Shown here: piece by piece, positions 4,233 through 16,802 of the stretch
How positions within the stretch are numbered: the stretch's first letter is position 1
Layout of the letters: each line of letters starts with the position of its first letter
Origin: Acidobacteriaceae bacterium
GTDB taxonomy: Bacteria > Acidobacteriota > Terriglobia > Terriglobales > Acidobacteriaceae
DNA: 43,131 nucleotides
Direction of reading: 5' to 3'
Assembly: GCA_030041515.1 (NCBI GenBank)
Contig: JASHNS010000118.1
Coordinates: 1-43,131 of the forward strand
Notes under the pieces: model-generated
The model's database searches: none
The model's input: the letters and a program-made list of their open reading frames with translations, nothing else
What the model was told of the DNA's origin: nothing
Made by a program: the position numbers and the translations under genes

Positions 4233-4256
4233 TGGTGGGCGGTGCAGGGCTCGAAC
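4233..4256 (-). repeat. tRNA 3'-end remnant (possible older integration scar)
   Basis: These 24 bases match the outer 24 bases of the tRNA-Val att core (4355-4378) with a single A-to-G change. They therefore look like the CCA end, acceptor strand and T-arm of a tRNA that has lost its 5' part. The copy lies outside the integrated element, 122 bp to its left. I infer a relic of an earlier integration or excision at the same tRNA. Confidence 0.55.
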
Positions 4257-4354
4257 TGGAGCGGCTTTGCGGGCGTCTGTGCCCGCACGCGAAATCCTGA
4301 CCCGAGCGTAGCGAAGGGGAAGGACCTGTGCCGCAAACAGATCCTCGTTCGGTA

Positions 4355-4399
4355 TGGTGGGCAGTGCAGGGCTCGAACCTGCGACCTCCTGCTTGTAAG
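4355..4399 (-). repeat. attachment site, left (attL): 3' half of tRNA-Val
   Basis: The 45 bases are identical to 16277-16321 and run from the CCA end of tRNA-Val into its anticodon loop. Immediately to the right the match stops, so this copy is not a working tRNA gene. It is the expected product of site-specific integration by a tyrosine recombinase at a tRNA 3' end. Confidence 0.9.
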
Positions 4400-4519
4400 T
4401 TGCACGGGAGCCATTTTCTGTTGATGTCTGTAGGTAGCTGTGGCCTACTCTCGGGCCTGTGAACATGCGGGGTTCGCGCTCATCGCCATTGCTTTTGACT
4501 TCTACCGTTTTCTGCTCAA

Positions 4520-4542
4520 GGTCCCCGGTATTCTCCCCGGTG
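4520..4542 (+). promoter_or_regulatory. putative integrase arm-type sites, left
   Basis: Two direct copies of TCCCCGGT lie 12 bp apart (4522-4529 and 4534-4541), about 120 bp inside the left core repeat. The 22-base block 4520-4541 is repeated with one mismatch at 16208-16229 near the other end, in the same orientation. Paired short repeats inside both ends are typical arm-type binding sites of phage integrases; the role here is inferred. Confidence 0.6.
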
Positions 4543-4563
4543 GATTCACCTGCAGCGGAGCCG

Positions 4564-4827
4564 CTAAACACTCACTCCTAAGAAGCGAAGCCGCGCCCGG
4601 AGCATGTCTATGGCATCTTGCAGCGGGACAGACTCCGCCGCGGCCAATTCATTTGCCTTGCGATATTCCAGCAGCCGGGCAGACGTTTCCCTTGCACGCT
4701 CAATGAGACTGCCATCGATGCCTGATCGGCCCTGGCTCATGGCAAGGTCCAGCGCGGTCACTGCCCAATGCGCGTCCGCCAGAAGCTTGTCGAGGTGATG
4801 ATCCCCACTGCGTTCTTGGTCAGTCAT
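4564..4827 (-). CDS. small helical protein of unknown function
   Basis: The 87-residue reading starts at MTDQERSG and is mostly charged and helical, with HWAVTALDLAMSQGR, LIERARETSARLLEYRKANELAA and LQDAIDMLRARLRFLG. This suggests two or three amphipathic helices and possibly coiled-coil dimerisation. The frame stays open further upstream (to about 5025), but that part is Pro- and Gly-rich and looks non-coding. No clear ribosome site marks the start, and an alternative start lies 11 codons upstream. It is the leftmost gene of the integrated element and diverges from the promoter at 5044-5072. I do not recognise the family. Confidence 0.5.
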   Translation of the reverse strand: MTDQERSGDHHLDKLLADAHWAVTALDLAMSQGRSGIDGSLIERARETSARLLEYRKANELAAAESVPLQDAIDMLRARLRFLGVSV

Positions 4828-5043
4828 GGCTGAGAAATTAGACGGCGGAATTGCCATTGTAGAGAGGGAAAGCGGACCATTCAAGGAAGCGGCAGGGACC
4901 GAGCCCAAGAAGGGATTTACGGCCCCTGTCCCACGGGTTGTACAAGAATCATGCCTGAAGCCGGGAGGGGCGAGTCTGACGGATATCAAACCGCCGGATT
5001 CCCACCAGAGCGGAGAAAAGAACAAGACGCATCACCTTTTCTC

Positions 5044-5072
5044 TTGCAATAACCTACCTTGTTAGGTATTAT
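5044..5072 (+). promoter_or_regulatory. sigma70-like promoter with operator-like inverted repeat
   Basis: TTGCAA (5044-5049), 17 bp, then TATTAT (5067-5072) make a near-consensus housekeeping promoter. Within the spacer, ACCTA (5052-5056) and TAGGT (5063-5067) are inverted arms, placed where a repressor would block RNA polymerase. The ATG of the next gene is 6 nt after the -10 box, so the transcript would begin at or next to the start codon. Confidence 0.6.
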
Positions 5073-5078
5073 CTCCAC

Positions 5079-5252
5079 ATGAAGTGCCCGATTCACAAAA
5101 TCGAGCTGATTTGCTACTGCCCCGCGTGCCGCGGAGAAGTGACGAGCGCTCGCAAGGCCACCTCCTCTCGCAGGAATGGCAAGCTCGGTGGCCGGCCGAA
5201 GGGCAGCAAGAACAAACCGAAGGACGCGGGAGCGGCAGTCGCACGCTCCTGA
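5079..5252 (+). CDS. 57-residue zinc-binding, AT-hook-like protein
   Basis: The reading begins MKCPIHKIELICYCPACRGE and ends AAVARS. It contains cysteines at residues 3, 12, 14 and 17 plus His6, which could form a small zinc site. A basic GGRPKGSKNKPK stretch at residues 37-48 resembles an AT-hook for the DNA minor groove. Such small zinc/AT-hook proteins are common in phages and integrated elements and are likely DNA-binding, perhaps regulatory. The promoter placed 6 nt upstream and the absence of a ribosome site suggest leaderless translation. It heads a rightward run of three small frames (5079-5728). Function is not established. Confidence 0.6.
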   Translation: MKCPIHKIELICYCPACRGEVTSARKATSSRRNGKLGGRPKGSKNKPKDAGAAVARS

Positions 5253-5327
5253 AACAGAAACGGCCCCGCCGGGTGCGCTAACACCCAACGGAGCCTAACC
5301 ATAGGTCGCCCATCGGAGGGGCAACGA

Positions 5328-5429
5328 ATGGCTACTGTTCAGAATAACCTCGCCGGGGATCCCGGCGGCATGCTCGGATCGCACTCCCACAAAGTCTCCA
5401 TCCGCCAGCGTCGTCAGCAGCGCGCCTGA
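5328..5429 (+). CDS. 33-residue small protein, unknown
   Basis: An ATG at 5328 follows a strong GGAGGGG ribosome binding site 6 nt upstream and opens a 33-residue frame ending in a basic, Gln/Arg-rich tail (SIRQRRQQRA). It lies between two better supported small zinc proteins on the same strand. The ribosome site is the main support; the product could equally be a leader peptide for the next gene. No family is recognised. Confidence 0.4.
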   Translation: MATVQNNLAGDPGGMLGSHSHKVSIRQRRQQRA

Positions 5430-5503
5430 GCATTAAAGCGCCCCGCTGCCGATCGCCGCTCCCCGCGGCACTCTTCCACGCTGCTGACTCAGGAGACTGC
5501 TCA

Positions 5504-5728
5504 ATGAGACCGAATCCAACGGACGTATCCTGCCTCCACTGTGGTGATGCCGTGCCACTCAGGACTGCTATCATCACCAAAGGTTATTGCGCGCGGTGTG
5601 CTCCCGACACTCCGATTCCGCTGGCCGGCGATCGACCCGCAACCAGCAAGGCCGAAACGGAATTATTAGGAAAACGCCAGGCCAACTGGGAAGAGAGGGA
5701 GCCTAGAAAAGTCGCTGCTGGCGTCTGA
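5504..5728 (+). CDS. small zinc-ribbon protein
   Basis: The 74-residue protein has two CxxC knuckles, CLHC at about residues 10-13 and CARC at 29-32, separated by a hydrophobic ITKGY linker, as in treble-clef or zinc-ribbon domains. The C-terminal half is polar and charged. A CAGGAG ribosome site lies 8 to 10 nt before the ATG. It is the last gene of the rightward small-protein run of the integrated element and faces the 350-residue secreted-protein gene tail to tail. A nucleic-acid-binding role is plausible but is an inference. Confidence 0.6.
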   Translation: MRPNPTDVSCLHCGDAVPLRTAIITKGYCARCAPDTPIPLAGDRPATSKAETELLGKRQANWEEREPRKVAAGV

Positions 5729-5881
5729 GAGCGCTCTCACAAATCCGGGATAGGAAACCATCACCGCGCACTCGCGGGCGCGCCCTAGGGCTAAATCCCG
5801 GCAAAGGCGAATGTCCATCGGGACTGATAGGGGGCGGCGAGCCCGACATCGCAATGCCGATCATTGCTAGCCCGGCTGACG

Positions 5882-6934
5882 TTACGGATGATCGCTCGGC
5901 AGGGGCGAGGCTGGCAGCAATTGGCTTGTGTGAAAAGTCATGCTCGCGTGGATAAGGCCAGTGGCCGTCTTTGCAGTTACGTCACACCGAATTCCGGTTA
6001 GGCGGTTTTGCCAGCCCGGTGTGAACGTCCCGTGATCCGTAAAATACACCACACAAAGTGGACTGTCTTCATGCGGCATCTGGCTGATCGGCATCCCCGG
6101 TTTTCCGGCCCCGAGATAAACGCCGTCGGCCAGGAAAGCGGCGTCAGACACCCGGTCTACTGGAAGACCCAAAAAACCGAGGGTCATGTTATGAGGGTCG
6201 CCGTTTTGAAACATCACAATTGTGTGACCTCTAGAACGGAAGTTCGCCCAGACAAGGGCTGAATCGCACTGGACCGGCTGCGTTGCCCACAGGAAGCCGT
6301 CCGCGCCCAATGTAAGATGCTCGGCTCTCATCCGTTTCGTCAGCAACTGAAAATCTCTTCCGCTCATGCCGCTCGCTCCTGCCGGCACGCCGTCGCTTTT
6401 AGCGATACTGCCCTGGCTGCAGGTGCCTTTAAACTCCCATGCATCGGGCTCGGCGGTCAGCGCCGGTTGCACCCGACTGGTTGCCGGCGCTCCTTGTGGT
6501 GAGCTTTGTGCGCTTTTGCAAACGACCGCAGCGATTGCGCCCGCGACGGATCTTGGAGGAGCGTCCATCATCGCCGATGGGCCGTCATCACCCCAACTCT
6601 GAAAATGTCCTTCACAATCGAAAAGCAAAGTTGTCAGGGCGTCTGGATTTATCGGGGCATTGGGAGCACTGGTGTAGACCAAGACCATGTGGGGAAGGGT
6701 GTCTCCGATGGCCTGCATGTCGATCCAGGTAACTTCACCATTATCCGCGTCGATCCGCTTCCAGACTGGTTTGCACAATTCCCCCAAAGCTCCTCCGAAC
6801 TCACAAGTTGGAAATATTTTTGCGAGGGCATCGGCCGGTTGAGCTGTCTGGGCGATGCACGGAGATCCGACAAGTAGCAGAAGCAGAAAAAAGAAGCCGA
6901 CAGTTCTGACCTCAGATACTTTGGGCGCTTTCAT
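5882..6934 (-). CDS. secreted protein of unknown function
   Basis: From ATG 6934 the 350-residue protein starts MKAPKVSEV and has a strong hydrophobic core (TVGFFFLLLLLVGSPCIAQ) ending in an A-Q cleavage-like site, so it is predicted to be exported by Sec. The mature part has scattered cysteines (for example in FPTCEFGGALGELC, LLFDCEGHF and PLCVVYF) that could form disulfides outside the cytoplasm. A GGAAAG sequence precedes the start. The frame is open 32 codons further upstream without a ribosome site. I see no enzyme motif. It sits in the accessory left half of the integrated element, downstream of two small leftward genes, and may be cargo. Confidence 0.7.
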   Translation of the reverse strand: MKAPKVSEVRTVGFFFLLLLLVGSPCIAQTAQPADALAKIFPTCEFGGALGELCKPVWKRIDADNGEVTWIDMQAIGDTLPHMVLVYTSAPNAPINPDALTTLLFDCEGHFQSWGDDGPSAMMDAPPRSVAGAIAAVVCKSAQSSPQGAPATSRVQPALTAEPDAWEFKGTCSQGSIAKSDGVPAGASGMSGRDFQLLTKRMRAEHLTLGADGFLWATQPVQCDSALVWANFRSRGHTIVMFQNGDPHNMTLGFLGLPVDRVSDAAFLADGVYLGAGKPGMPISQMPHEDSPLCVVYFTDHGTFTPGWQNRLTGIRCDVTAKTATGLIHASMTFHTSQLLPASPLPSDHP

Positions 6935-7019
6935 CTTGACTTTCCGATTAGGGGCAAATTCACAGCTCTCCACGATCTCTGCTCCAATCCCCTTTGGTTG
7001 ATCGTCTCTGATGCAGGAT

Positions 7020-7229
7020 TCACTGAGCATCTGGTGCGGCCAGCTTGCTCCATTGCTCGATCAACTTGAGAAAGCCGACCACGTTCCCTTCCTCACCAAA
7101 TTCCTGTTCGTAGAGCCCAAAGATGTATTCAGCGAAGCGAATGCGCGGATCCTCCAAAAGAGGGTTCAGGGGATCGACAAACTCAGGCGGAAGCTGTGGG
7201 TTTTGCGCGACGATTTGCAGGGTAGTCAT
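7020..7229 (-). CDS. 69-residue protein, unknown
   Basis: ATG 7229 follows an AAGGAG ribosome site and opens a 69-residue frame (MTTLQIVAQNPQLPPEFVDP to WSKLAAPDAQ). The sequence is acidic with a helical middle (IRFAEYIFGLYEQEFG). A longer reading from 7355 adds basic, unlikely sequence, and the ribosome site favours the short form. A TTGCCA-17-TACGGT promoter lies upstream at 7355-7327. It is followed after 85 bp by the secreted-protein gene on the same strand. No family is recognised. Confidence 0.6.
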   Translation of the reverse strand: MTTLQIVAQNPQLPPEFVDPLNPLLEDPRIRFAEYIFGLYEQEFGEEGNVVGFLKLIEQWSKLAAPDAQ

Positions 7230-7326
7230 GATTGGCTCCTTATGCGCGGTGCCAGCGCGAAAGAGAGAACTGCGGTGCCTCTCCGCACTTGCTCCAGGAA
7301 GAATGACAGCAGGGAAGATTGTTTCT

Positions 7327-7355
7327 ACCGTAGGACGTGGTATCGAATGTGGCAA
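7327..7355 (-). promoter_or_regulatory. possible promoter for the leftward 7229/6934 genes
   Basis: On the minus strand TTGCCA (7355-7350), 17 bp, then TACGGT (7332-7327) fit a sigma70 promoter. It lies just after a terminator for the preceding gene, as expected for a new transcription unit. Confidence 0.4.
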
Positions 7356-7360
7356 GAGAA

Positions 7361-7383
7361 TAAAAACCCCTGTGATTACAGGG
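7361..7383 (-). terminator. Rho-independent terminator
   Basis: Read on the minus strand, CCCTGT (7383-7378), a 4-nt loop and ACAGGG (7373-7368) are followed by G and five T residues. This stem plus T-run lies 25 bp beyond the stop of the small membrane protein gene ending at 7408, and it supports that gene being transcribed. Confidence 0.65.
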
Positions 7384-7407
7384 CTTTCGATGGTGCTTAA
7401 CGTGACC

Positions 7408-7620
7408 TCAGTAATCCCGCAGCGCCGGCCGCGAGTCAGAACGGGCAGAGATTAAGACGCCAGACTTAATCCACCGAGGTAAGCGGCGGCCATGGTACTC
7501 CAAAAAGAAACCCGCTGATTCTCCCAGGAGGTTCAGCGGGGCCAAGAGATACCAAAATGCGTTGTTGAGGAACACTATGGCACACGCGGCCACGGCGGGC
7601 AAGATTACGGAAGTAGTCAC
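7408..7620 (-). CDS. small single-pass membrane protein
   Basis: From GTG 7620 the protein has 70 residues with one membrane segment near its start (VILPAVAACAIVFLNNAFWYLL) and a basic C-terminal tail (HGRRLPRWIK), so the tail is probably cytoplasmic. A TTG at 7674 would add 18 His- and Pro-rich residues that look non-coding. The start is uncertain because no good ribosome site is seen. A terminator follows directly at 7383-7361, which is the best evidence that the gene is real. It lies in the accessory part of the integrated element; function is unknown. Confidence 0.5.
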   Translation of the reverse strand: MTTSVILPAVAACAIVFLNNAFWYLLAPLNLLGESAGFFLEYHGRRLPRWIKSGVLISARSDSRPALRDY

Positions 7621-7792
7621 CCTTACGCGAAAGTAGTCATGCGGGTGGGGATGCTCCTGCTGCCCCCGTGGCAATGGTGCTTTATTGACACGTTACTCCG
7701 GTCGATACTTGCCAGTCCCAGCGCTAACTACTACATCGGACGGCGAGCGCCACGTCAGGTGCAGCGCGCACCTCAGAGATACAATGGACAGC

Positions 7793-8071
7793 ATGAACCG
7801 CCGCCAGTTCACCTTGCTACTTCCCGCGGCCGCGCTCGTGGCCGGGTGTAACACTGAGCAGAAGCCTTCGGCCGCCGCGAGCCTTCGGAACAACGGTGGC
7901 GTGCAGGATGCGCTCAAGGCCATGGACAACGCAATCGTAGTTCTCGATTCTCAGGTTGTCCGCTTCGACGATGGGAACTGGCGCAGCGTCGTACCTGCTG
8001 TGGAATCAGCAAGCGCTAGCGTCCGCTCGGCATTTGAGGATCTACAGCGTGCCCTCGGCATCACGGAGTAA
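7793..8071 (+). CDS. small lipoprotein with twin-arginine-like signal
   Basis: The 92-residue product begins MNRRQFTLLLPAAALVAGCN: an RR-containing n-region, a hydrophobic core and a lipobox LVAG before Cys19, so it is a predicted lipoprotein. The mature part is helical and polar (VQDALKAMDNAIVVLDSQV, VRSAFEDLQRALG). ATG 7793 is chosen over ATG 7784 because TACAAT at 7780-7785 lies 7 nt before 7793, matching the leaderless spacing seen elsewhere here, and because it puts RR at the very start. It converges with the glycine-rich gene, 8 bp apart. A spanin-like lysis role is conceivable for a phage-related element but is not shown. Confidence 0.6.
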   Translation: MNRRQFTLLLPAAALVAGCNTEQKPSAAASLRNNGGVQDALKAMDNAIVVLDSQVVRFDDGNWRSVVPAVESASASVRSAFEDLQRALGITE

Positions 8072-8079
8072 CCCTTTTT

Positions 8080-9123
8080 TCACGGCGTATACGTGATCAC
8101 AACGATTCCCTGGCAGCCAGCGCTGCCCGGTCCCTGAGAAGGCCCGAATCCACCAGCGCCGCCCCCGCCACCATACAGTCCGCATGCACCTCCGCTACCT
8201 CCATGGCCTGAGAGACTGCCCCCGCCGCCACTCCCAGCGCCGCCGCCGCTGCCGTAGGTTCCCCATTCCTTGCCCGCGCCGCCCGCGCCGCCACTATCCT
8301 CGCTAGTATTGCTATCTCCGCCACCGCCGCCCCCGGAGGCACCATTGATATCGCCGCCGCCGTTGCCCGCCCCAGTCCCTGAACCTCCTGCACCGCCCGG
8401 AATCGAAGCTGTGTAATTTGCCCCTCCTGCACCGCCGGTATTGGTTGTCGCCGAACTTCCCGCTGCGCCGCCGCCCGAGCCTCCGCCGCCCCCAGCTCCG
8501 GACTCACCAGAGTTGGGATTCCCAGCGCCTCCAGCGCCGCCCGCACCATTCGGACCGGCCGCGCCGCCGCCGCCACCGAACGCTGTATGTGACGTGGGCG
8601 TTCCTGCCGCGCCGCCGTCATAAAGGGTCGTTCCAGTTCCACCTGTGCCGCCAGCGGGCGCTGTCGAGCTTCCCGAGCAGCCGCCGCCGCCGTTCGCGAT
8701 TACGGAAGCTCCGAACGATGAACTGCCGCCAGATCCTCCCGTGCCCGACTGGCCACCAGCAGTACCACCAGCACCGATGGTTACCGTCACATTCGATCCG
8801 GACGTGTAAGCGATGCTCGCCTTGGCGTACTCGCCGCCAGCACCTCCTGTGGTGTTTGTCCCGCCTTCGTAATCTCCGCCGCATCCTCCTCCGCCGCCCC
8901 CAATAGCTTCCACGGTGATCGCAGAGCCGTTCGTTATCCCATGCCAGGTGACCGAAGAGGTGCAGAACTCCCGCTGCTCAGAGCCGACCACGACGCAGGG
9001 GCAGACTGGCGAATTGACGCAGCCGGCGACAAGCCCCGCAGTCGCGCCCGTAAGCGCTGGTCCGATAGCCTGCCCATGCGCACTGAAACCAACCAGCAAA
9101 CCGAGCCAAAGTAGCCGTTTCAT
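8080..9123 (-). CDS. secreted glycine-rich, tail-fibre-tip-like protein
   Basis: The 347-residue protein has a Sec-type N-terminus (MKRLLWLGLLVGFSAHGQA), a Cys-rich stretch, then about 250 residues dominated by Gly with Ala, Ser and Asn in GGGGG and GGAGG runs. It ends in a QGIVVITYTP strand. This pattern (VEAIGGGGGG at the start of the glycine domain and a GIVVI-type terminal strand) is that of glycine-rich domains at the tips of phage tail fibres and of some surface proteins, where glycine helices stack into a sandwich. Its start overlaps the preceding gene's stop by ATGA, indicating translational coupling. A signal peptide is unusual for a virion protein; see findings. Confidence 0.65.
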   Translation of the reverse strand: MKRLLWLGLLVGFSAHGQAIGPALTGATAGLVAGCVNSPVCPCVVVGSEQREFCTSSVTWHGITNGSAITVEAIGGGGGGCGGDYEGGTNTTGGAGGEYAKASIAYTSGSNVTVTIGAGGTAGGQSGTGGSGGSSSFGASVIANGGGGCSGSSTAPAGGTGGTGTTLYDGGAAGTPTSHTAFGGGGGAAGPNGAGGAGGAGNPNSGESGAGGGGGSGGGAAGSSATTNTGGAGGANYTASIPGGAGGSGTGAGNGGGDINGASGGGGGGDSNTSEDSGGAGGAGKEWGTYGSGGGAGSGGGGSLSGHGGSGGACGLYGGGGGAGGFGPSQGPGSAGCQGIVVITYTP

Positions 9124-10016
9124 TGTGCCTCCACGTTGAACGTAATTGCGCTATAGGTGATCGAGCTGGCGGTCTGATTGCACACCTCCCAGGTCGCTGT
9201 GTTGGCCGCACTAGGCCAGATCTGAAACACCATCCCGCCCACCGAGCCCCATCCGGTCAGGGATGCTGGATTCGCGCTGTAGCCCGCGGACACAACCATG
9301 GAAGTGGTCAGCCCGGTCATCGTCACGTTCGTGCTCGAGGAGCACGAATTGGAGCTCTGTGTTCCTGCGGAAACTGAAACAGTCGTGTCTCCGATACCGC
9401 CTCCGCCGCTAATCGCGATCGGCGTCTGTGCGGTCGTCCGCCCCTTCGCATCCGTTGTGATCTGACAAACGTGAGTGGAATCCCCGCAGACGCCGGGGCC
9501 GCTGTTAACTGTCGCGAGCGTTGCCGCTTGCGATCCAGAGCCGGGGCCGGCAGTCACATCGCCGGTAAGCTGAGTGATCCCTGAGCCCGAGGAGCCAGGC
9601 GTGACGAAGGGGGTTCGATCATCGCTGATCGACGTGACCCCTGTTCCATTCGTCAGAACCGTGGCGATCGGGATATCGGTCGACGTAAACGTGGTCGTCT
9701 TAACGGCCGGCGCGCAACTTGCGGAAGTGTCCAGGTAGACGTAATTCGTGGCGCTTGCGGTCATGGTGAGCGTCCCGCCGCTGTACGTTTCGATCGTGCC
9801 AGCGCAATTTGCCGTGCCTGGTCCGACGCTCAAATTGAGGCCACTGGTGCTCGCGCAGCTCGTTGCTGCGGCTCCGCACGGCATGTAACCTGGTGCAACG
9901 CCATTCGTATATTTCGCGTTCACCCCATAGAGCGGAGCCGCCTGCGTCTGCGGATTCTGTGCGCTCGCGACGTGCGCCATCAGAAAGAGCAACGGCCAAA
10001 TCAAATTGCGTTTCAT
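9120..10016 (-). CDS. secreted tail-fibre-like protein
   Basis: The 298-residue protein begins MKRNLIWPLLFLMAHVASAQ, a clear signal peptide. The mature part reads like a phage fibre or baseplate-decorating protein: PIATVLTNGTGVTSISDDR resembles the 'value, default, DDR' segments of fibre proteins, and ITQLTGDVTAGPGSGSQAAT with TTDAKGRTTAQ resembles the repeated 'LTGDVTA / DAKGR' units of tail-fibre repeats. It begins 2 bp after the terminase small-subunit stop and overlaps the glycine-rich gene by 4 bp, so the three form one operon. Fibre homology is read by eye and should be taken as moderate. Confidence 0.6.
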   Translation of the reverse strand: MKRNLIWPLLFLMAHVASAQNPQTQAAPLYGVNAKYTNGVAPGYMPCGAAATSCASTSGLNLSVGPGTANCAGTIETYSGGTLTMTASATNYVYLDTSASCAPAVKTTTFTSTDIPIATVLTNGTGVTSISDDRTPFVTPGSSGSGITQLTGDVTAGPGSGSQAATLATVNSGPGVCGDSTHVCQITTDAKGRTTAQTPIAISGGGGIGDTTVSVSAGTQSSNSCSSSTNVTMTGLTTSMVVSAGYSANPASLTGWGSVGGMVFQIWPSAANTATWEVCNQTASSITYSAITFNVEAQ

Positions 10017-10018
10017 CG

Positions 10019-10861
10019 TTAGTTCCCTTTCCTGTCTGTTGCTGCGGGAGGATTCCCATCGACTTCTAACTCTTTTGCGTCCAATACCTTATCTGCAACG
10101 GTCAGAAAACTACCCCCATTCGTACCCCCACCAGTCGCCAAAAGTGCCAATTGCGCATCTGTAAGCTCGTTCAGGTTGACCGTCGCGGCTGCGAGCGGAA
10201 TAGGGCCGCCGCCGGGGCCGCTCACTTCTGAGCGCTCTTTGAAGATCCCCAGGTAGCGACCGAGGGCTAGGAGGGCTTCGTTCTGATTCCGCGCCAGCGC
10301 CTTCACGCCGTCTTTCGTTTGCTGGGCGCCGGCGTAGAGCTTGGCAGCCTGGGGGCTGAGATTGCGGGTGTCTCTTACGAGAACAGTTTCAATCCCGCGC
10401 CCGAAGCACTCCGGGCATTCCGGGTTGGGCTCCCGAGTCGCCGTGTAGCCAATGCCACCCTCAAAAGAAGGAGGGGATTGCCCGTCGCGCATGGCTTCGC
10501 GGATGGCGCTTTCGTACTCGGCTAAGGTCCACTGGCGCCGAAATTCGATCCCATAGCAGTGACGGCAACAGTCCCGGTGGACGCTCACGAGTTCCCGGAC
10601 GTCGGCAGTCGCCACGTCCATCAGCTCGCGGACCACCATCGCCGTATCGACTTCTGCAATCGCGACGATTTGGTCAAGGCGCCGGGAGATCGCAGTCCGG
10701 ACCTTAGGGTTGGCTAATAACAGTGATGCTTGAACGCTCGCTCCATTCTGAGAATAGCCAGCTCGGATGGCGGCCTGCGTAGCATTCCAGTCCTTCACGT
10801 ACTCGCGCACGAAGGCGGCTTGCCGGTCAGTTTTGAGATCGTCATCCACAGTGGTAATCAT
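10019..10861 (-). CDS. terS: phage terminase small subunit
   Basis: From ATG 10861 the protein has 280 residues. The N-terminus (LKTDRQAAFVREYVKDWNATQAAIRAGYSQ, written here in part) carries the helix-turn-helix of the Terminase_2 small-subunit family. The middle holds two CxxC-type knuckles (DCCRHCYG and NPECPECFGRG) that are conserved in the proteobacterial phage branch, and a C-terminal DTRNLSPQAAKLYAG/TKDGVK segment typical of it. TerS selects phage or satellite DNA and hands it to the large subunit for packaging. No large subunit is in the element. ATG 10861 has a GAGGAAG ribosome site; the 13 codons upstream are less likely coding. It is first in the late-like leftward operon. Confidence 0.85.
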   Translation of the reverse strand: MITTVDDDLKTDRQAAFVREYVKDWNATQAAIRAGYSQNGASVQASLLLANPKVRTAISRRLDQIVAIAEVDTAMVVRELMDVATADVRELVSVHRDCCRHCYGIEFRRQWTLAEYESAIREAMRDGQSPPSFEGGIGYTATREPNPECPECFGRGIETVLVRDTRNLSPQAAKLYAGAQQTKDGVKALARNQNEALLALGRYLGIFKERSEVSGPGGGPIPLAAATVNLNELTDAQLALLATGGGTNGGSFLTVADKVLDAKELEVDGNPPAATDRKGN

Positions 10862-10915
10862 CGAACTCTGCTTCCTCTTATCCGCGGTGCCCAGATGCAC
10901 TCACGATGGGGGACT

Positions 10916-10999
10916 GTGTAGTGTGTGTAGCTGGATTTGTTTACCCCTTAGAAAATCGATCTCTATAGGGATAAACCGGAGGAACTGCACACCCTACAC
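10916..10999. promoter_or_regulatory. 15-bp imperfect inverted repeat upstream of terS
   Basis: GTGTAGTGTGTGTAG at 10916-10930 and its imperfect reverse complement at 10985-10999 (13 of 15 positions) lie in the gap between the primase stop and the terS start. Paired sites there suggest binding of a regulator that controls terS and the two downstream genes separately from replication. The role is inferred. Confidence 0.45.
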
Positions 11000-11018
11000 G
11001 GTCCCGGCAAATTAAACT

Positions 11019-13370
11019 TCATTGGACTATCCCCGGCGGCGGAGGTGGCAGCGCGGGCGACGGGCCCGGCTGGAACGGCAAATCCCAGGAGGGCGGCAAC
11101 AGGCGCAATCCGCGATAATGCATCCCTGAGCTGGTCCTCACTCGTTCGAATCCCTGCATCACCTCCAACCATCGACTCTTCGATACCGCGCGTTCGCCGC
11201 GGGCCTCCTTCCACTGTTTGTAGTCCCGGTAAAGGTCTGTCACTTTGGGCAGGTGGAGCGCCGGCCGCTCATCGATCGCCAGTCGCTCCGTCCGCTCAGC
11301 CAGCCACAGAAGCGGGGTTGATTGATTGGCGAAATAGCTGTCGCTCTCAGCCTCCACGGCTGAGCACATATACAGCCCCTTGCCAGCAGCCAACCACTGG
11401 CGGTGCCCCTCTATGAGCCAGGCCAGAACGTAGCCCAGATGCTCGCGCAGGCGCCGGGGAAGGTCGGCATCCTCGCGGCCCTTGAAGGAAGCGCGGAACG
11501 GCACGATCTTTATGCGGCTCCTGATGCCATCGCTCACGCTGCGAAGCTGGGGCCTGTAGTTGCCATAGATAAGGTGCTTGTGAGTGCGAGGGAAGGTAAA
11601 GAAGTCACCGCGCATGAATCGAGCGCTGAGGGTGGCATCCCCGGTTATCTCGTTGATCCGGGCTTCGTCCCAGAAGTCACCATCGTTGATTTCCGATGAG
11701 GTGGCGAGTCGGAGCCCTTGCAGGTTCGCGACCTCTGTGGGATGGCTTTCGTGGAGCTTCGCCATCAATGTCGATGCCGGAATTTTGCGAGCATAGTCAC
11801 CCATCGCATCCTGTACCAACTCCCCCAGGGTGTTCTTCCCGTTACGGCCGGCGCCGATCCAAAAGAGCATCCAGTGACCTTCCACGGCGCCGGAAAGACA
11901 AGCTCCCAGCGACACCTGGTGAAATCCCTGGAGCTGGAAGTCGCCTGAGGTGATTTCGTTCATGAATTTGAGGAAGACTTCTCCTCCGCGCGGATCCGGC
12001 GCCACGCCGGTGCAGAGGGTGAGCATATCGGCGGGGGCATGCGGATTCATCTTGCAGGTGCGGAGATCGAAGGTGCCAGCCGGGGTATTCAGCAGATAAT
12101 TGTCCCCGTTGAATTGATCAGTTGTTCGTGCAAACTCCGGTGCGCTTTGCAGAAGACGTTCGACGCCGTCACAGAAGGATGCGGCGCCCATAGATGCCTT
12201 GCCGTCGTAGTTCAGTTCGCGGGCGATATCGCGGATCAGGTTATGAGCCCTGCCCAGCCGGTCCGCCTTCCATCGGGCGCCGTCATACTCCAGCCAGAGC
12301 GAACGGGTGCGATCGTAGAGCATCCTGCCTTGCATTCTTTGGGTGAATATCAGCGCCACGGCGTCCTGCGTGCCGACGTTCGCCAGCGTTCTCTCAACCG
12401 GAGTCAAAGTGATTCCGCCAGCAACCGGCGCCGGTGTAAAAGCTGCCGGGCGCCGGTCCTGATAAACGTCCACCTGTCGGGCAACGGCGCTCAGGATGGT
12501 GCGCCGCAGGTAATCGCTGCGCTCCCATTTGTCGCGTACCAGAGCACTGCCCTGCATGAGCCGCTCGATTCGAGAGCAATCTCGGCCGGTCCAGAAGGCC
12601 AGGTGTTGCGCCAGAGCCGCGTCGGCGCTGGAAGCGTCGTAAGGACGATTTGGGCCACCGGGATATGCTGCGCTCAGCTTGGCGGCTCTGGCCTCCCACA
12701 AGTCAGAGAACGAGGGTTTCTTCGGATCGAAGGCAGCCGCGGCGCTGGTGGAGTGAAGGGCGCGCCGCAATAGCTCACCATCATCTTCCGGACCGCTCCA
12801 ATTCGGATCTGGTGCGGTCGACCACACCTGTTGCGCCCCAGCATCCGACGAATGCGCCGGCGGAAAGTAAGTAGCGATGAGCGCAGGCAACATCATCGTC
12901 AGGTCCGTCTCTACGTTGCCGTCCGGAGCGAGGGGAGAGCCCAGGGCGAAAAATCTCTTCTCGTGATAGAACTCAGCCCCATTCGCTTTGCAGGCATGCG
13001 CCGGCATCTCTCCGCGGTAACTAAACCAGAAATGAATGCCGGTGCCGGATATGCTGACTTCCGCGTGAGCGCCGGGCAGGAGAAACTTCATCGTCTGCGC
13101 CAGACCCGAAAGCTCCCCGGTGTGGGGATCGCGGCAGCCGTCCACATCCACCACGGCGATCTTGACCGATTCACAGAGCACGAAACCCAGGTACACGTCG
13201 GGACGCTGGGCGGCCAGCCTGCAGGCATCCTCGTAGCTGTGCCACTTCGAGGGGTCAGTCACGGAGGCGAGCGGGATCTTATCGAGCTTGCCACTGATGG
13301 CGTTGGCCTCCGTGCGATAGAGAATGAAGTTGCGGTGCTTCCTGAGCGCCGCCAGGCCCGGGGGGATCAC
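11019..13370 (-). CDS. prim-pol / P4-type SF3 helicase (replication protein)
   Basis: The 783-residue protein joins two replication enzymes. Residues ~1-200 form a bifunctional primase-polymerase: DVDG metal-binding motif at 75-78, SISGTGIH at 106-113, and a FFALGSPL strand. Residues ~400-700 form a D5/P4-like SF3 helicase: Walker A GAGRNGKNT with Lys512, then ATSSEINDG and a HLIYGNYRP sensor region. Such fusions start and unwind replication of satellites, plasmids and phages. I chose GTG 13370 because it overlaps the upstream stop as GTGA and has GGGAGGG 9 nt before it; ATG 13475 would overlap the upstream gene by 109 bp. It follows HTH, AlpA and zinc-protein genes in one coupled operon. Confidence 0.85.
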   Translation of the reverse strand: MIPPGLAALRKHRNFILYRTEANAISGKLDKIPLASVTDPSKWHSYEDACRLAAQRPDVYLGFVLCESVKIAVVDVDGCRDPHTGELSGLAQTMKFLLPGAHAEVSISGTGIHFWFSYRGEMPAHACKANGAEFYHEKRFFALGSPLAPDGNVETDLTMMLPALIATYFPPAHSSDAGAQQVWSTAPDPNWSGPEDDGELLRRALHSTSAAAAFDPKKPSFSDLWEARAAKLSAAYPGGPNRPYDASSADAALAQHLAFWTGRDCSRIERLMQGSALVRDKWERSDYLRRTILSAVARQVDVYQDRRPAAFTPAPVAGGITLTPVERTLANVGTQDAVALIFTQRMQGRMLYDRTRSLWLEYDGARWKADRLGRAHNLIRDIARELNYDGKASMGAASFCDGVERLLQSAPEFARTTDQFNGDNYLLNTPAGTFDLRTCKMNPHAPADMLTLCTGVAPDPRGGEVFLKFMNEITSGDFQLQGFHQVSLGACLSGAVEGHWMLFWIGAGRNGKNTLGELVQDAMGDYARKIPASTLMAKLHESHPTEVANLQGLRLATSSEINDGDFWDEARINEITGDATLSARFMRGDFFTFPRTHKHLIYGNYRPQLRSVSDGIRSRIKIVPFRASFKGREDADLPRRLREHLGYVLAWLIEGHRQWLAAGKGLYMCSAVEAESDSYFANQSTPLLWLAERTERLAIDERPALHLPKVTDLYRDYKQWKEARGERAVSKSRWLEVMQGFERVRTSSGMHYRGLRLLPPSWDLPFQPGPSPALPPPPPGIVQ

Positions 13371-13795
13371 GCGTTTGCCCTCCCTCGATAATCGACGCCG
13401 GCTTCCAGCTTTGCTGACACCATCGGCGGCAGGCACGAATCGTTTGACCTCCAGCTCTCCGCGCACCAGTTGCATAGGAAATAAACCTTTGGGCCGAACG
13501 GAGTCAGGCAAAGCAGATTCACATAGCTGAGTGAAGGAACATCCTCCTCCGCTATTTCCCCGCCCATGGGCTTGCCGCACTCATCACAGATGCCATCCGG
13601 TTCGCAATGCCAGTCAAGCCACCGTAGGGTGGTGTCGAATTTCCCGGACCTAAACTGTCGGGCAAATTCGCGCAGCTCTTTCGGAGTAAAGGTCGGGTGA
13701 CAGGGAAAATCGATAATTATTCGGTCTTTGAAAACATCCGCCACGAGGACGAGAATGGGCGATGATGGTCGCCAGGCGACCGTTGGCGCAGCCAT
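13367..13795 (-). CDS. zinc-binding protein of the replication operon
   Basis: The 142-residue protein has two CxxC motifs, CDECGKP and CNWCAES, in its C-terminal half, suggesting one structural zinc. The N-terminal half has VLVADVFKDRIIIDFP and KELREFARQF. Its ATG shares one base with the AlpA stop (TAATG), and its stop overlaps the primase GTG by GTGA, so translation of the three genes is coupled. Position suggests a role in replication or its control, perhaps as a primase accessory factor. No family is recognised. Confidence 0.65.
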   Translation of the reverse strand: MAAPTVAWRPSSPILVLVADVFKDRIIIDFPCHPTFTPKELREFARQFRSGKFDTTLRWLDWHCEPDGICDECGKPMGGEIAEEDVPSLSYVNLLCLTPFGPKVYFLCNWCAESWRSNDSCLPPMVSAKLEAGVDYRGRANA

Positions 13796-14070
13796 TACCT
13801 GACCTCCCCATTGGAGATGCTGGCGATCAGCGCTCTTATCGACTCCACAGACCACGCGCGCGTTCGCGGGCCCAGCAGCACGCCGGCGGGAAAGCGGCCG
13901 GTCTTGACTCCTGCCCACCAGGTAGCTCGGGAAACGGGGATGATCGCGGGGATGCCGCGCTTGGGATCACCGATGATCTGTCGCAATCTCACAAATCCTT
14001 CCTGAGGCAGGCTATTCGTGAGAGCCTCTCTGGTATGAGGGCTCAGTGACGCAATGGATGGAGCGGTCAC
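13795..14070 (-). CDS. AlpA-family regulator
   Basis: The 91-residue protein from GTG 14070 contains the AlpA/excisionase winged-helix signature: GFVRLRQIIGDPKRGIPAIIPVSRATWWAGVKTGRFP (given here in part), where PVSRATWW is the recognition region, then LGPRTRAWSVESIRALI. AlpA proteins activate integrase or excision genes in P4-like satellites and often serve as master regulators of Gram-negative satellites. The GTG shares one base with the preceding stop (TAGTG) and has GGAG about 10 nt upstream. A longer reading from 14211 overlaps the HTH gene and is not favoured. Confidence 0.8.
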   Translation of the reverse strand: MTAPSIASLSPHTREALTNSLPQEGFVRLRQIIGDPKRGIPAIIPVSRATWWAGVKTGRFPAGVLLGPRTRAWSVESIRALIASISNGEVR

Positions 14071-14255
14071 TAACGCTGCTCCAGAGCTGGGATCGTAGAG
14101 CCTTCGATGATTCGGGCTATTTCCGCCTCCTTGAATCTCACAGACCGGCCCAACTTGACGTAAGGGAGTTCGCGTCTCCAAACTTTTTGTCGGATAGTTG
14201 CAGGCCGCCATCCTGTGAGCCGAGCAACCTCGTCAACAGTCAGCAATCGAGTCAT
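14070..14255 (-). CDS. excisionase-type helix-turn-helix protein
   Basis: The 61-residue protein from ATG 14255 is a MerR-like HTH_17 fold: LLTVDEVARLTGWRPATIRQ is the helix-turn-helix, then KVWRRELPYVKLGRSVRFKE, the wing typical of excisionase-family DNA-binding proteins. A GGAGG ribosome site lies 9 nt upstream. It is the first gene of the leftward operon and faces the integrase operon across a ~100-bp control region, so it may direct excision or repress the divergent promoters. The frame is open upstream to 14513, but that part runs antisense into the divergent gene. Confidence 0.8.
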   Translation of the reverse strand: MTRLLTVDEVARLTGWRPATIRQKVWRRELPYVKLGRSVRFKEAEIARIIEGSTIPALEQR

Positions 14256-14318
14256 TTTGCCGTCCTCCGTAAAGGCGATAATCGGAGAACTAAAATAATT
14301 GATCAAGAAGGATTGGAG

Positions 14319-14347
14319 TTGCAATATACACAGTTTCGTCCTATAAA
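14319..14347 (+). promoter_or_regulatory. strong promoter of the integrase operon, in a divergent control region
   Basis: TTGCAA (14319-14324), 17 bp, then TATAAA (14342-14347) is close to consensus. TTGCAA is its own reverse complement, so the same hexamer could act as the -35 of a leftward promoter (with AATTAT 18 bp away), a compact divergent switch. TTTCGT (14334-14339) and ACGAAA (14361-14366) are inverted arms around the -10 box and start point, a likely operator. Leftward use is weaker evidence. Confidence 0.6.
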
Positions 14348-14355
14348 TAATCTCT

Positions 14356-15045
14356 GTGACACGAAAACAGCATCCCCACAACAGAGTTCCTCGCGGGTTT
14401 ATGGAGATGATTCTCCTTTCTCTGAATTCTGATCCTGAGGAAAACTGGCCGGTAGATCGTGCGGAAATCCGGCGACTGGTGAAAGCGTGGAGGGATTCCG
14501 GGCGAGATGCCAAAAAGACACTGAAGAGCCTACCGGACCTGAAGCCCTATGAGTTCGACGAAGACGGCAACCTATCGTGCCGCGTAGCTTTGCTTCCGGT
14601 CGGGAGCGGGTTGCAAGCTACGCCACCCTCGGCCGAGACCCCCCTTAAAAAGACAATTCGAGAGCTGCTCATCTATGAAGCTCGACGAGACTTCATCCGG
14701 CTTCTTCTTGATCCGTTGCGCGAAGAGTTGAGCGAAGACCCCTGTGCCAGATGCGATCTCTATTTCCTGAAGAAGACGGCGAGACAGACGGTTTACTGCT
14801 CCCGGAAATGCGGCAGGGATGGCACCGCAGCTTTTGCAACAAAGAAGAGATTGCGGGATCAGCGTAACCGCAAATTAATCGTGGCTACCGAGCTGTCTCA
14901 AAAGTGGACGACAGCACACACAAGGGACGATTGGAAACAGTGGATCTCGAAGCATCCTCGCGGAGTGAAGGAAGAACTCACTCCGAAGTTTCTGACGCGC
15001 GCTGTCAACAAAGGCGACCTCCTGCCGCCGAAAAAGGAGAGATGA
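14356..15045 (+). CDS. zinc-finger protein upstream of the integrase
   Basis: The frame gives 229 residues from GTG 14356, or 214 from ATG 14401. The core has a C-terminal zinc finger (CARCDLYFLKK and YCSRKCGRD, about residues 137-163) resembling zf-CGNR-type fingers, followed by basic helices (TKKRLRDQRNRKL). Such proteins are found beside integrases of acidobacterial and proteobacterial elements; DNA binding is likely. The start is uncertain: GTG 14356 lies 8 nt after the -10 box (leaderless), and ATG 14401 lacks a clear ribosome site. It ends 3 bp before the integrase ATG, so the two genes form one unit, and it could help recombination or regulate it. Confidence 0.7.
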   Translation: MTRKQHPHNRVPRGFMEMILLSLNSDPEENWPVDRAEIRRLVKAWRDSGRDAKKTLKSLPDLKPYEFDEDGNLSCRVALLPVGSGLQATPPSAETPLKKTIRELLIYEARRDFIRLLLDPLREELSEDPCARCDLYFLKKTARQTVYCSRKCGRDGTAAFATKKRLRDQRNRKLIVATELSQKWTTAHTRDDWKQWISKHPRGVKEELTPKFLTRAVNKGDLLPPKKER

Positions 15046-15048
15046 AAG

Positions 15049-16266
15049 ATGGCTGTGTTTCGCTATAAGGGCAGCAAGGTGTGGACGATGGACTTCATGT
15101 TCCGCGGCCAACGCATCCGGGAAAGCACAGGAACCCGCTCCAAAACCCTCGCTCTGAAGATTGAGGACAAGCGCCGACGGGCTCTTGAGGAGGGCGCTGC
15201 AGGCATCAGGAAGCAGCAGCAGCCCCTCCTGCTATCGACTGCGGCGGAGGAATGGTTAGGCGTGAGGAAAACCACACTTGCCCCGCGCTCGATCGAGATC
15301 GCAAAGGGAGCGCTGGCGCACATGCTCCCGGAGATGGGCCGCCAGCTCATCTGCGATCTCGACGCGCGACACATTGCCCGCTACCAGCAAAAGCGGTTGG
15401 GAGAGGGAGCTTCGCCTCGTACAGTCAATCTTGAAGTTGGAACGTTACGCGGGATCCTCAAGCGGTCGGGTCAGTGGGCGCGACTCCAGCCCGAAGTAAA
15501 AATGCTGCCTGAGCGAGATGACGTAGGGCGGGCGATCACTGTAGAGGAGGAAACCGCGCTACTCCAGGCGTGCGGTCAGTCTCGCTCTCGCTCACTGGTG
15601 CCCTTTGTGACGCTGGCTCTTGAAACCGGCGCGCGCTATGGGACGATTCGCACTCTGCGGTGGGGCAGCGTCGACTTTGAGAATCGCTGTTTGAAGTGGG
15701 GCAAGGATAAGACGGCCGCCGGCACGGGTCGCGTGGTCCCACTCAGCCAGCGCGCCGTGGCCTCGCTCGGCCTCTGGGCGATGCACTTCCCGAAACGGGA
15801 GCCTGAGCATTACGTGTTCCCGGCAGAACGCTACGGAGCTGGCGGTGACGTCTTCAGCCCGAAGGCGTACCACGTCGAGCCATCTAAGCCCATCGGCAGC
15901 GTCAAAGAAGCCTGGGAAGCCGCCAGAGTGCGGGCAGCACGCATCTTGAAGGGCGATGCGGAAGAAATGGAAGCGGCAGGCCCCCAGCCCGGAGAGAAGA
16001 TCAAACCGCTCGCCTGCCGCTTCCACGATCTGCGGCACACATTCGTATCGCGCCGGCTCAATGCAGGTGTACCGATCGCGAAGATCGCCAAGATTGTCGG
16101 GTGGAGTGGATCAACAATGGTGCTGATGGCGAAGCGTTACGGGCACTTCACGCTGAACGAACTGAGGGATGCCGTAGAAGACGCCAGCATGGGCAAAATT
16201 GAAGCGGGGTCCCCGGTAATCTCCCCGGTATCGGACCCCGCTACGGAATCAAAACGTCCTAACTAA
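15049..16266 (+). CDS. tyrosine recombinase (integrase)
   Basis: The 405-residue protein has an N-terminal arm-binding domain (MAVFRYKGSKVWTMDFMFRG), a SAM-like core-binding domain (about residues 60-150) and a catalytic domain. The catalytic residues are visible: Arg196 (ETGARYG), a Lys in KDKTAAGTGR (219-221), HDLRH (326-330), Trp352 in the position of the usual second His, and nucleophile Tyr364 (KRYGHF). Family function: integration and excision at the tRNA-Val att site, 10 bp beyond its stop. AGGAG precedes the ATG. The last ~20 codons contain the arm-type repeats (16208-16230), so coding and binding sites overlap. Confidence 0.95.
   Translation: MAVFRYKGSKVWTMDFMFRGQRIRESTGTRSKTLALKIEDKRRRALEEGAAGIRKQQQPLLLSTAAEEWLGVRKTTLAPRSIEIAKGALAHMLPEMGRQLICDLDARHIARYQQKRLGEGASPRTVNLEVGTLRGILKRSGQWARLQPEVKMLPERDDVGRAITVEEETALLQACGQSRSRSLVPFVTLALETGARYGTIRTLRWGSVDFENRCLKWGKDKTAAGTGRVVPLSQRAVASLGLWAMHFPKREPEHYVFPAERYGAGGDVFSPKAYHVEPSKPIGSVKEAWEAARVRAARILKGDAEEMEAAGPQPGEKIKPLACRFHDLRHTFVSRRLNAGVPIAKIAKIVGWSGSTMVLMAKRYGHFTLNELRDAVEDASMGKIEAGSPVISPVSDPATESKRPN
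16208..16230 (+). promoter_or_regulatory. putative integrase arm-type sites, right
   Basis: Two direct copies of TCCCCGGTA (16210-16218 and 16222-16230), 12 bp apart, lie within the 3' end of the integrase gene, 47 bp before the right core repeat. The 22-base block matches 4520-4541 at the other end with one mismatch and in the same orientation. Confidence 0.6.
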
Positions 16267-16276
16267 TTGATCTGAT

Positions 16277-16321
16277 TGGTGGGCAGTGCAGGGCTCGAAC
16301 CTGCGACCTCCTGCTTGTAAG
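16277..16321 (-). repeat. attachment site, right (attR): within the intact tRNA-Val
   Basis: The 45 bases are identical to 4355-4399 and are the 3' part of the complete tRNA-Val, from CCA to the first base of the anticodon loop. Integration therefore left the tRNA functional. Crossover is expected in the anticodon-loop end, where the identity block stops. Confidence 0.9.
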
Positions 16322-16353
16322 GCAGGCGCTCTGACCAGCTGAGCTAACCGCCC
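16277..16353 (-). tRNA. tRNA-Val, anticodon TAC
   Basis: Read on the minus strand, the 77 bases fold as a cloverleaf: acceptor 5' GGGCGGT against ACTGCCC, D-arm TAGCTCAGCTGG, anticodon stem CCTGC/GCAGG with loop CTTACAA (anticodon TAC at 16319-16317), T-arm with GGTTCGAGCCC, and an encoded CCA. TAC reads GUA and other valine codons. Its 3' half is duplicated at 4355-4399, which makes this gene the target of the integrated element. Confidence 0.95.
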
Positions 16354-16395
16354 GCAGCCGATCACCGCAGCTTGGCGGTCATCCCGTTCAGTGTA

Positions 16396-16575
16396 TCAGC
16401 GCCGCGATATCGGAATCACCGGCGGCCGCTCTTCAGGCCCGCGATGCCGTGGCCGTGCCGAACGCGCCCCTTCGATCAGAAACAGCGCACCCAGCCCTGC
16501 GATGGCGGATAAATTCCCGAGCGCCCATATCCCGAAGAATTGCAGCATCGCGTGTTGCATGGAAATCCAGGCCAT
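16396..16575 (-). CDS. 59-residue membrane protein, unknown
   Basis: The minus-strand frame from ATG 16575 has one membrane segment (QFFGIWALGNLSAIAGLGALFLIEGA, about residues 12-37, given in part) and a basic, Pro-rich tail (RPRHRGPEERPPVIPISRR) that should stay in the cytoplasm. An AAGGGG sequence lies upstream. It lies just upstream of tRNA-Val on the same strand. No family is recognised. Coding status rests on the membrane segment and tail, which look non-random. Confidence 0.5.
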   Translation of the reverse strand: MAWISMQHAMLQFFGIWALGNLSAIAGLGALFLIEGARSARPRHRGPEERPPVIPISRR

Positions 16576-16802
16576 CGCAGGACCCCTTTGACTGGTCGTC
16601 CCCGATTCGAATCTGCCTGCGACCGGCGCAAAGAGCGTGTCTCAGCCCCGCTGTAACACGGGCGATATGACAACTCAAGCATCTGCGGCCCGAGCAGAGT
16701 GTGATCGTACCGCTGTTAACCAGCTTGATCCAGCTCTCTTTAGTGATCAAACAGGCGCAATAATGTCACAGCTTTTGGGAAGCTCAGGTAACCATTGATG
16801 GG

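Follow-up and report, generated by a model that had tools for sequence, protein, structure and literature searches.

The main finding of this report, which concerns a 43,131-bp stretch of DNA from an Acidobacteriaceae bacterium (contig JASHNS010000118.1 of assembly GCA_030041515.1, hereafter the window), is that the element between positions 4355 and 16321 is probably, at roughly 0.8, a phage satellite resembling the phage-inducible chromosomal islands (PICIs). Integrated in a tRNA-Val gene, it would replicate itself and use its own terminase small subunit (TerS) to enter the heads of a helper phage. An original prediction, made from the letters of the sequence, had put forward the same reading, which is supported by our analysis: no terminase large subunit (TerL), portal, or capsid gene was found within the attachment (att) borders, and empty sites exist.

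The element is bounded by two identical 45-bp att repeats (4355-4399 and 16277-16321), which give an att-to-att span of 11,967 bp. The right repeat is the 3' 45 nt (16277-16321) of an intact tRNA-Val(tac) gene on the minus strand (16277-16353; Rfam tRNA match 73.4 bits), which is the sole tRNA of the window. G+C content is 59.4% inside the element (11.9 kb) vs. 63.1% and 62.1% in the flanks. The genome contains one exact match to a 16S signature specific to Acidobacteria. Three sister genomes have an element-free tRNA-Val site. In G001, a permease gene, a phosphoribosyltransferase gene, tRNA-Val, about 150 bp, and a homologue of the left-flank gene (50% identical) follow one another without interruption, and in G004 and G005 the left flank (window 4233-4399) matches, at 77-79% DNA identity, a stretch starting in the 3' end of an intact tRNA-Val. 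The right-flank gene is present in 11 sister genomes; 10 of these loci were fetched, nine of which contain tRNA-Val(tac), and no integrase was seen by eye beside that tRNA among the first open reading frames (ORFs) of the nine. As for the surroundings of the repeats, a partial third copy of the tRNA-Val 3' end at 4233-4256, 122 bp left of the left att repeat and also found in G004 and G005, is a scar of an earlier integration. A 22-bp repeat (95%) at 4520-4541 and 16208-16229 joins the left end of the element and the 3' end of the integrase gene, and is possibly an arm-type site or a trace of old recombination. On contig C491 of G010 (L179 6600-7808), 1.1 kb lies between tRNA-Val and a second, 38-bp copy of the tRNA 3' end, a presumed remnant of another integration at the same tRNA-Val site.

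The features of the element and its borders are as follows (HTH, helix-turn-helix).

16277-16353, minus strand: tRNA-Val(tac), intact, its 3' 45 nt being the right att repeat (tRNA scan, Rfam, and repeat search)
15049-16266, plus strand: tyrosine integrase, 405 aa, ending 10 bp from the tRNA 3' end (PF00589, 2.1e-17; Int_N, 5.3e-7; phrog_1, 4.5e-49)
14356-15045, plus strand: 229-aa ORF upstream of int with a 3-nt gap (DUF6076 below cut-off; weak HNH-like PHROG match)
14070-14255, minus strand: HTH_17 excisionase-like protein, 61 aa, start re-assigned (HTH_17, 1.3e-10; phrog_66, excisionase and regulator, 1.8e-8)
13795-14070, minus strand: AlpA-like regulator, 91 aa, GTG start overlapping the HTH_17 stop (likeness to proteins of relatives)
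13367-13795, minus strand: Zn protein (orf142), 142 aa, with a CxxC pair, start overlapping the alpA stop (DNA reading)
11019-13370, minus strand: primase-helicase (D5_N / NrS-1 HBD), about 783 aa, overlapping the preceding stop (D5_N, 4.4e-18; NrS-1 HBD, 1.2e-18; phrog_1829, 1.6e-120)
10910-11005, no strand: candidate replication origin, 18-bp iteron arms at 10988-11005 and 10910-10927 with a 60-bp spacer (pairing vs. shuffles)
10019-10861, minus strand: TerS, 280 aa, ATG at 10861 (Terminase_2, 2.5e-29)
9120-10016, minus strand: orf298, fibre-like, 298 aa, hydrophobic N terminus, starting 2 nt past the terS stop (phage/viral contig matches; no Pfam family)
8080-9123, minus strand: gly347, glycine-rich and fibre-like, 347 aa, ATGA overlap with orf298 (phrog_863, 1.6e-11)
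7408-7674, minus strand: cargo, 88-aa ORF, no match (Pfam, PHROGs, and PADLOC scans)
7020-7355, minus strand: cargo, 111-aa ORF, no match above cut-off (same three scans)
5882-7030, minus strand: cargo, 382-aa protein with a hydrophobic N-terminal segment, no known family (same three scans)
5504-5728, plus strand: cargo, 74-aa ORF with two CxxC, no match above cut-off (Pfam and PHROGs scans)
4564-5025, minus strand: cargo, 153-aa ORF, no match (Pfam, PHROGs, and PADLOC scans)
4355-4399, no strand: left att repeat, 45 bp, identical to 16277-16321

The integrase and the 229-aa ORF are on the plus strand, and the genes from HTH_17 to gly347 are on the minus strand, divergent from int. The core frames are intact, with stop/start overlaps leading from HTH_17 through alpA and orf142 to the primase (TAGTG, TAATG, and GTGA); the probable starts of alpA (91 aa), the Zn protein (142 aa), the primase (783 aa), and TerS (280 aa) are not those of the longest ORFs. 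This agrees with the original prediction of coupled genes, as do the orf298/gly347 overlap and the 2-nt gap after terS. That prediction was also right about exact 45-bp tRNA-Val repeats, an integrase at one end, an HTH/excisionase protein, a primase/helicase, and TerS, and the possibility it had raised against itself, relatives without an empty site, is answered by G001, G004, and G005. Its AlpA is supported by likeness: four related elements encode, upstream of their primases, five proteins that are 46-66% identical to this one, although it lacks a family match above cut-off. The absence of capsid, portal, protease, and large terminase genes held as well, since among the main ORFs (17 in Pfam and 17 in PHROGs, which are not every short six-frame ORF) there was no match to TerL, portal, capsid, protease, or lysis families. 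No Stl-type repressor was identified in the element, a PADLOC search of six window ORFs for defence systems gave no match, and promoter and terminator scans were near chance level (5 vs. 3.1 and 11 vs. 11.2). Small proteins with weak likeness (20-31%) to the Zn protein occupy the same slot in relatives, and of 99 other genomes one, G002, encodes a relative of the 382-aa cargo protein, which aligns in two pieces at 44-51%. Predicted structures were of low confidence (predicted local distance difference test of 48 for the Zn protein and 36 for orf298).

Related elements were sought in the bacterium's own genome, a class sample of 399 genomes, a phylum sample of 396 genomes, 150 relatives (for the primase), and IMG/VR. 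Elements with alpA, pri, and terS also occur in G317, which belongs to the same bacterial family (locus L076), and in two environmental elements from IMG/VR, L027/L028 and L029, with TerS 53-62% identical to that of the window; L027 and L028 are 99.97% identical over a 6,101-bp overlap and are counted as one element. No TerL match was found in any of the three, L029 being cut by the contig end 0.8 kb behind terS. Their gene orders are given below.

G317: tRNA-Pro, int, 196-aa ORF, alpA, two small ORFs, primase (frame split), terS, resolvase (internal stop), Drt8, type I restriction
L027/L028: tRNA-Pro, int, two alpA, small ORF, primase, terS, resolvase, HtpG, Dit-like protein, 169-aa ORF
L029: alpA, 191-aa ORF, primase, terS, resolvase, contig end

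The resolvase behind terS, serine-recombinase-like by eye, is common to these three elements. In G317, Drt8 matches at 3.3e-137 and an att copy 18.7 kb away shares 21/24 bases (3 mismatches); in L027/L028, HSP90 (HtpG) matches at 9.1e-124 and the Dit-like protein at 7.8e-7 (phrog_1830, 1.9e-37), and an att copy at L028 9159-9182 shares 19/24 bases (17 in a row identical, 5 mismatches), giving an element of about 11.3 kb. Both copies came to light with 24-base tRNA ends. No copy was returned by direct-repeat searches of L076, L048, and L027 or by 30-base tRNA ends allowing up to 5-6 mismatches, and G042 gave no att copy with a 30-base end allowing up to 8 mismatches. The HtpG gene (L028 5388-7298), between terS-resolvase and the distal att copy, is unusual satellite cargo. 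The TerS search matched 11 of 399 genomes of the class sample at E 0.001 (own included; G317 306 bits, next 48 bits) and 21 of 396 of the phylum sample, where no genome but the own one, which is counted here, exceeds 60 bits and G317 is not matched; the own genome has one TerS copy. An AlpA alignment search matched 26 of the 399 genomes, those above 100 bits being the own genome, G317, and G042, which were in the alignment, and a new one, G394; an AlpA-like match in G153 (73 bits) was dropped, as no other queried element gene matched the stretch fetched. G394 has tRNA-Glu, an integrase (43%), alpA, a Prim-Pol/AAA_25 primase, and, on the other strand at the contig edge, an Sf6-type TerS (1.1e-30). 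Because G394 shares int and alpA yet has another primase and another TerS family, replication and packaging modules seem exchangeable; likewise, we take int to be a swapped module because the window integrase has no tblastn match at E 1e-4 to the integrase of the tRNA-Pro elements. Together, these elements form a small and apparently undescribed family, members of which also carry tail-like or anti-phage defence genes.

TerS sets these elements apart from phages. Among 93 TerS ORFs compared, the highest scores, 483-530 bits, belong to five satellite loci (four elements), and no TerL was matched in the stretches examined around them, whereas the next 19 by score (246-309 bits, some near-copies) all have TerL as the next ORF of at least 120 aa. 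The split is claimed only for these five loci and the next 19: with the six query proteins, no TerL was matched beside many lower-ranked ORFs, which are often followed closely by an ORF of 417-504 aa, and frame choice can err (as for L237, described below). In a tree of 67 rows, the four satellite TerS are one clade (SH-aLRT, the Shimodaira-Hasegawa-like approximate likelihood ratio test, 97), followed by phage L039 on a long branch (support 92). Satellite TerS are, by region from N to C terminus, 43, 45, 51, and 38% identical to 13 chosen phage TerS, and in the last 65 residues the satellites resemble each other (37%) no more than they do phages. Identity to the TerS of named phages is at most 43% among the matches listed (20 of 134 records).

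These phage TerS also bear on the idea that the element is a decayed prophage, in which one deletion, from TerL to baseplate, would have reduced a temperate phage like L031 or L039 (with primase, TerS, TerL, portal, and fibres) to int, the replication genes, TerS, and two fibre genes. L031 and L039 do hold relatives of the N-terminal part of the primase (35-41%) and of TerS (37-41%), followed by TerL; the prophage-like L171 has a 51% primase with an adjoining iteron origin; and the position of the fibre-like genes directly after terS would fit such a deletion. However, the core frames of the window are intact and overlapping, the tRNA-Pro relatives, whose integrase does not match and whose cargo is unrelated, likewise yielded no TerL, their TerS falling with that of the window in a clade separate from phage TerS, and three related elements have a common resolvase where the fibre-like genes would be. 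Were they independent wrecks, each element, with different targets, two integrase types, and different cargo, would need its own TerL loss. We regard this alternative as weakened and unlikely.

An integrative element moving without phages, be it a self-replicating island or a mobilisable one whose TerS-like protein would serve regulation or phage interference, is highly improbable. Integrase, resolvase (in relatives), and primase-helicase modules do exist outside satellites, and no close TerS stood beside a TerL in the genome samples searched. Yet no relaxase, conjugation, or partition family matched in the Pfam/PHROG scans of the window ORFs, and TerS aligns along its whole length with the 13 chosen phage TerS. 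Moreover, G394 has the same AlpA and integrase families with a different TerS beside a different primase, as if TerS were kept as a function, although that TerS lies at a contig edge beyond which a TerL is possible.

The replication module includes a candidate origin. Inverted 18-bp iteron arms lie directly 3' of the primase gene, 16/18 paired in the window, and the same structure is found at the related primases (L027 18, L029 18, L076 16, G042 16) and in a second element of the own genome on contig C35 (18); AT content of the spacers across loci is only 49-67%. At each locus 0/100 dinucleotide shuffles reach the iteron value, vs. 30/100 for a control intergenic stretch with a value of 13, and among 272 window segments only one, overlapping the origin, reaches 16 (three reach 15). 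Pairing in phages L031 and L039 is 12 and 13, below 16. We rejected the origin as proof of a satellite, since L171 and four other primase loci have one; it is a likely sign of a working type of replicon, not of satellite status. A primase search matched 18 of 150 relatives (own genome included), only G042 (56%) over most of the length. The C35 element (G000:C35:51064-59454; L049 7065-15455) is itself satellite-like, with exact 24-bp tRNA-Glu repeats 8.4 kb apart, integrase, HTH, a D5 primase with the 18/18 origin, a resolvase-like gene, and a 236-aa protein that has no PHROG match and resembles DUF5681 only weakly (0.04, below cut-off). In a Proteobacteria metagenome-assembled genome (YF3.bin23; L024 7073-12337), a 44% primase relative is followed by 18/18 iteron arms, and some 1.7 kb upstream of it lies an integrase that shares 31% identity with the L027 one. 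Another phylum may thus hold an element of this sort.

Judged by its genes and their order, the element is predicted to work like a PICI. PICIs, as described in PMC6092414, combine int, a divergent regulator pair (Gram-positive) or AlpA/MerR (Gram-negative), xis, and pri-rep with an origin of two iteron sets around an AT-rich stretch directly 3' of that gene; some have terS, head and lysis genes are absent, and the size is about 10-15 kb. Further PICI criteria are att sites never used by prophages, genes exclusive to PICIs, and induction, packaging, and interference that depend on a helper. Like the PICIs of that source, including the Staphylococcus aureus pathogenicity islands (SaPIs), the element has an integrase at one end with att repeats, a regulator and an excision gene, a fused pri-rep, a 3' origin with two iteron sets (the spacer only 58% AT, and the structure also present at other primases), terS, a variable accessory slot, and a comparable size (11,967 bp; relatives about 11.3 and 18.7 kb). 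Its int-divergent order is like that of Gram-positive PICIs, and L027 and G317 are transcribed one way like Gram-negative PICIs, as described there. As for structural or lytic genes, no TerL, portal, capsid, protease, or lysis gene was found, yet there are two fibre-like genes; as for exclusive genes, the TerS clade is apart from phage TerS and a 51% primase relative sits in a prophage-like contig. Unlike PICIs, the element is in another phylum, has a TerS clade of its own, and carries fibre-like genes behind terS, where its relatives have a resolvase. Capsid-forming PICIs have their own capsid, portal, and TerL genes, none of which was found here in the Pfam/PHROG scans. P4-like satellites have int, an AlpA/Vis type regulator, a primase-helicase, and a tRNA target, as here, together with the packaging/capsid-size genes psu, sid, and delta; unlike them, the element has TerS, and no psu, sid, or delta family is among its Pfam/PHROG matches. 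The phage-inducible chromosomal minimalist islands (PICMIs) of Vibrionaceae (PMC10803314) share the order int-alpA-small gene-primase and defence cargo beyond the primase; unlike here, the PICMI115 genes named in that source do not include TerS, and borders are at fis rather than tRNA-Val. AH14b of Pseudomonas sp. ANT_H14 (PMC4936722) is likewise a satellite with its own primase and no structural genes, but its authors report finding no terminase gene there.

The cycle that these genes suggest would begin with infection by, or induction of, a helper phage, upon which the AlpA-like/HTH operon would be turned on. The integrase and the HTH_17 excisionase would then cut the element out at the 45-bp repeats, which are present as sites, and the primase-helicase would replicate it from the iteron origin 3' of its gene, a module also seen in place. 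By analogy with SaPIs, the element's TerS would mark its DNA, recruit the helper TerL, and fill helper-made heads. The slot behind terS would hold replaceable cargo, here two fibre-like genes plus genes of no known family, and, in the related elements, either defence genes or HtpG together with a Dit-like tail protein.

As to the helper, a phage of the L088-L097 type, with TerS 45-50% identical and, in L088, a TerL of the Terminase_6 family, is the better guess. The own genome has one Terminase_6C match and no PF05065 capsid, Terminase_6C being the large-terminase family searched there; we do not name this TerL as helper because it has no meaningful similarity to the TerLs of L088, L094, and L031, the partners of related phage TerS. 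The TerL in question lies in a structural cluster of the own genome (L237, G000:C11:1-14500), together with a HipA-like gene, DUF3037, a portal (PF04860, 1.5e-52), a capsid-like gene (by eye), and further genes beside purE/purK. Portal matches occur in 12/12 genomes of the genus and 43/100 relatives (own included, one weak), all within the 60 same-family genomes and 0/40 outside, and identity falls with kinship. Five relatives that were checked (L250-L254) keep the order of the matching genes, which are fewer in L254, and the three stretches long enough to show it end in purE/purK. The cluster has the look of a domesticated phage, gene-transfer-agent-like or of another kind, passed on by vertical descent; beside it, L250 has a giant ORF (13819-18756) with a hydrophobic, by eye secretion-signal-like stretch.

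Several points weigh against the satellite reading. The TerS clade is one of four sequences in a quick tree supported by SH-aLRT only, with no bootstrap, and the AlpA-like protein falls below the Pfam cut-off (Phage_AlpA, E 0.051) with no PHROG match. Iteron arms of at least 16/18 also occur at 5/21 other primase loci, including the prophage-like L171 (17), whose contig (portal and capsid by eye) is the one holding the 51% primase relative with an adjoining iteron origin. G042 has int (in two frames), alpA, a primase, and a resolvase fragment but no TerS match, and the primase and resolvase frames of G317 are broken; some members are, on this evidence, in decay. Lastly, orf298 and gly347 could be leftovers of a prophage.

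These two genes are probably fibre proteins, so the original claim of an element free of tail genes is probably mistaken. The PHROG match of gly347 is phrog_863, "tail fiber assembly" (1.6e-11), with 0/2 copies shuffled after residue 50 matching anything and Pfam Gly_rich_2 only below cut-off. No Pfam family was matched by orf298, and its PHROG matches all stay at E 0.14 or above; it does match proteins annotated as tail proteins in two phage records: 38.5% over 26% in a Syntrophomonadaceae phage, and 64% over 20%, with a 61-column common stretch, in Tunturi_4. The latter (record PP885687), a Tunturiibacter phage, belongs to the Tunturi phages of Acidobacteriota, which, unlike the element, are autonomous, a Tunturi phage being described as 88 kb (PMC11924767). 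The N-terminal half of orf298 is 52-54% identical to four viral contigs, and its C-terminal end 65% (113 aa) and 68% (60 aa) identical to two others; by eye, the match lies in or beside the tail region in L182, L183, and L184 (5/6 contigs viewed, not L186), and the matching ORFs of L182, L185, and L187 likewise have no Pfam family. Several fibre-like genes of L182, L183, L184, L185, and L187 contain or start with a hydrophobic stretch, secretion-signal-like by eye, which is odd for tail proteins. Because of the 2-nt gap and the ATGA overlap, terS looks co-translated with orf298 and gly347, apparently as one operon.

This cassette, together with the Dit-like protein inside the L027/L028 att repeats, is the basis for a tentative and rather doubtful idea, that members of the family bring along tail parts of their own. 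Were such parts built into the hijacked particle, the satellite would set both the DNA packaged (by TerS) and the cell bound (by the fibres), and could re-target helper virions to other soil bacteria. An explanation of the fibre-like genes by interference, in which non-functional fibres poison the tails of competing or helper phages, is also unlikely. It has a precedent in the Tai proteins of PICIs and P4-like satellites, which are reported to block tail assembly (PMC11364771), and L028 carries a Dit-like tail protein; yet genes placed directly after terS would be expressed at the very time at which the satellite requires tails for its own transfer.

The open-licence literature searched yielded no description of a satellite from Acidobacteria, which is weak evidence of absence and is in line with the earlier statement that none was known. 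A paper on HipA kinases that mentions acidobacteria names phage-inducible chromosomal islands in its reference list alone. PMC5900883 (Eichorst 2018) gives 35 prophages in 19 acidobacterial genomes, six without virion genes, which could be satellite phages; none is described in that account as an actual satellite. The word "satellite" is absent from the main text of the Tunturi phage paper (PMC11924767), and PICIs are known from many Firmicutes and Gammaproteobacteria (PMC10803314). If our reading is correct, satellite biology would extend to a major soil phylum, the Acidobacteriota, through a family that inserts at tRNA-Val and tRNA-Pro, uses integrases of two types, and exchanges its cargo, Drt8 and type I restriction included. 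The TerS clade and the AlpA family would then be sequence handles for finding more such elements, and the fibre cassette behind terS would be an unusual way of steering helper particles.

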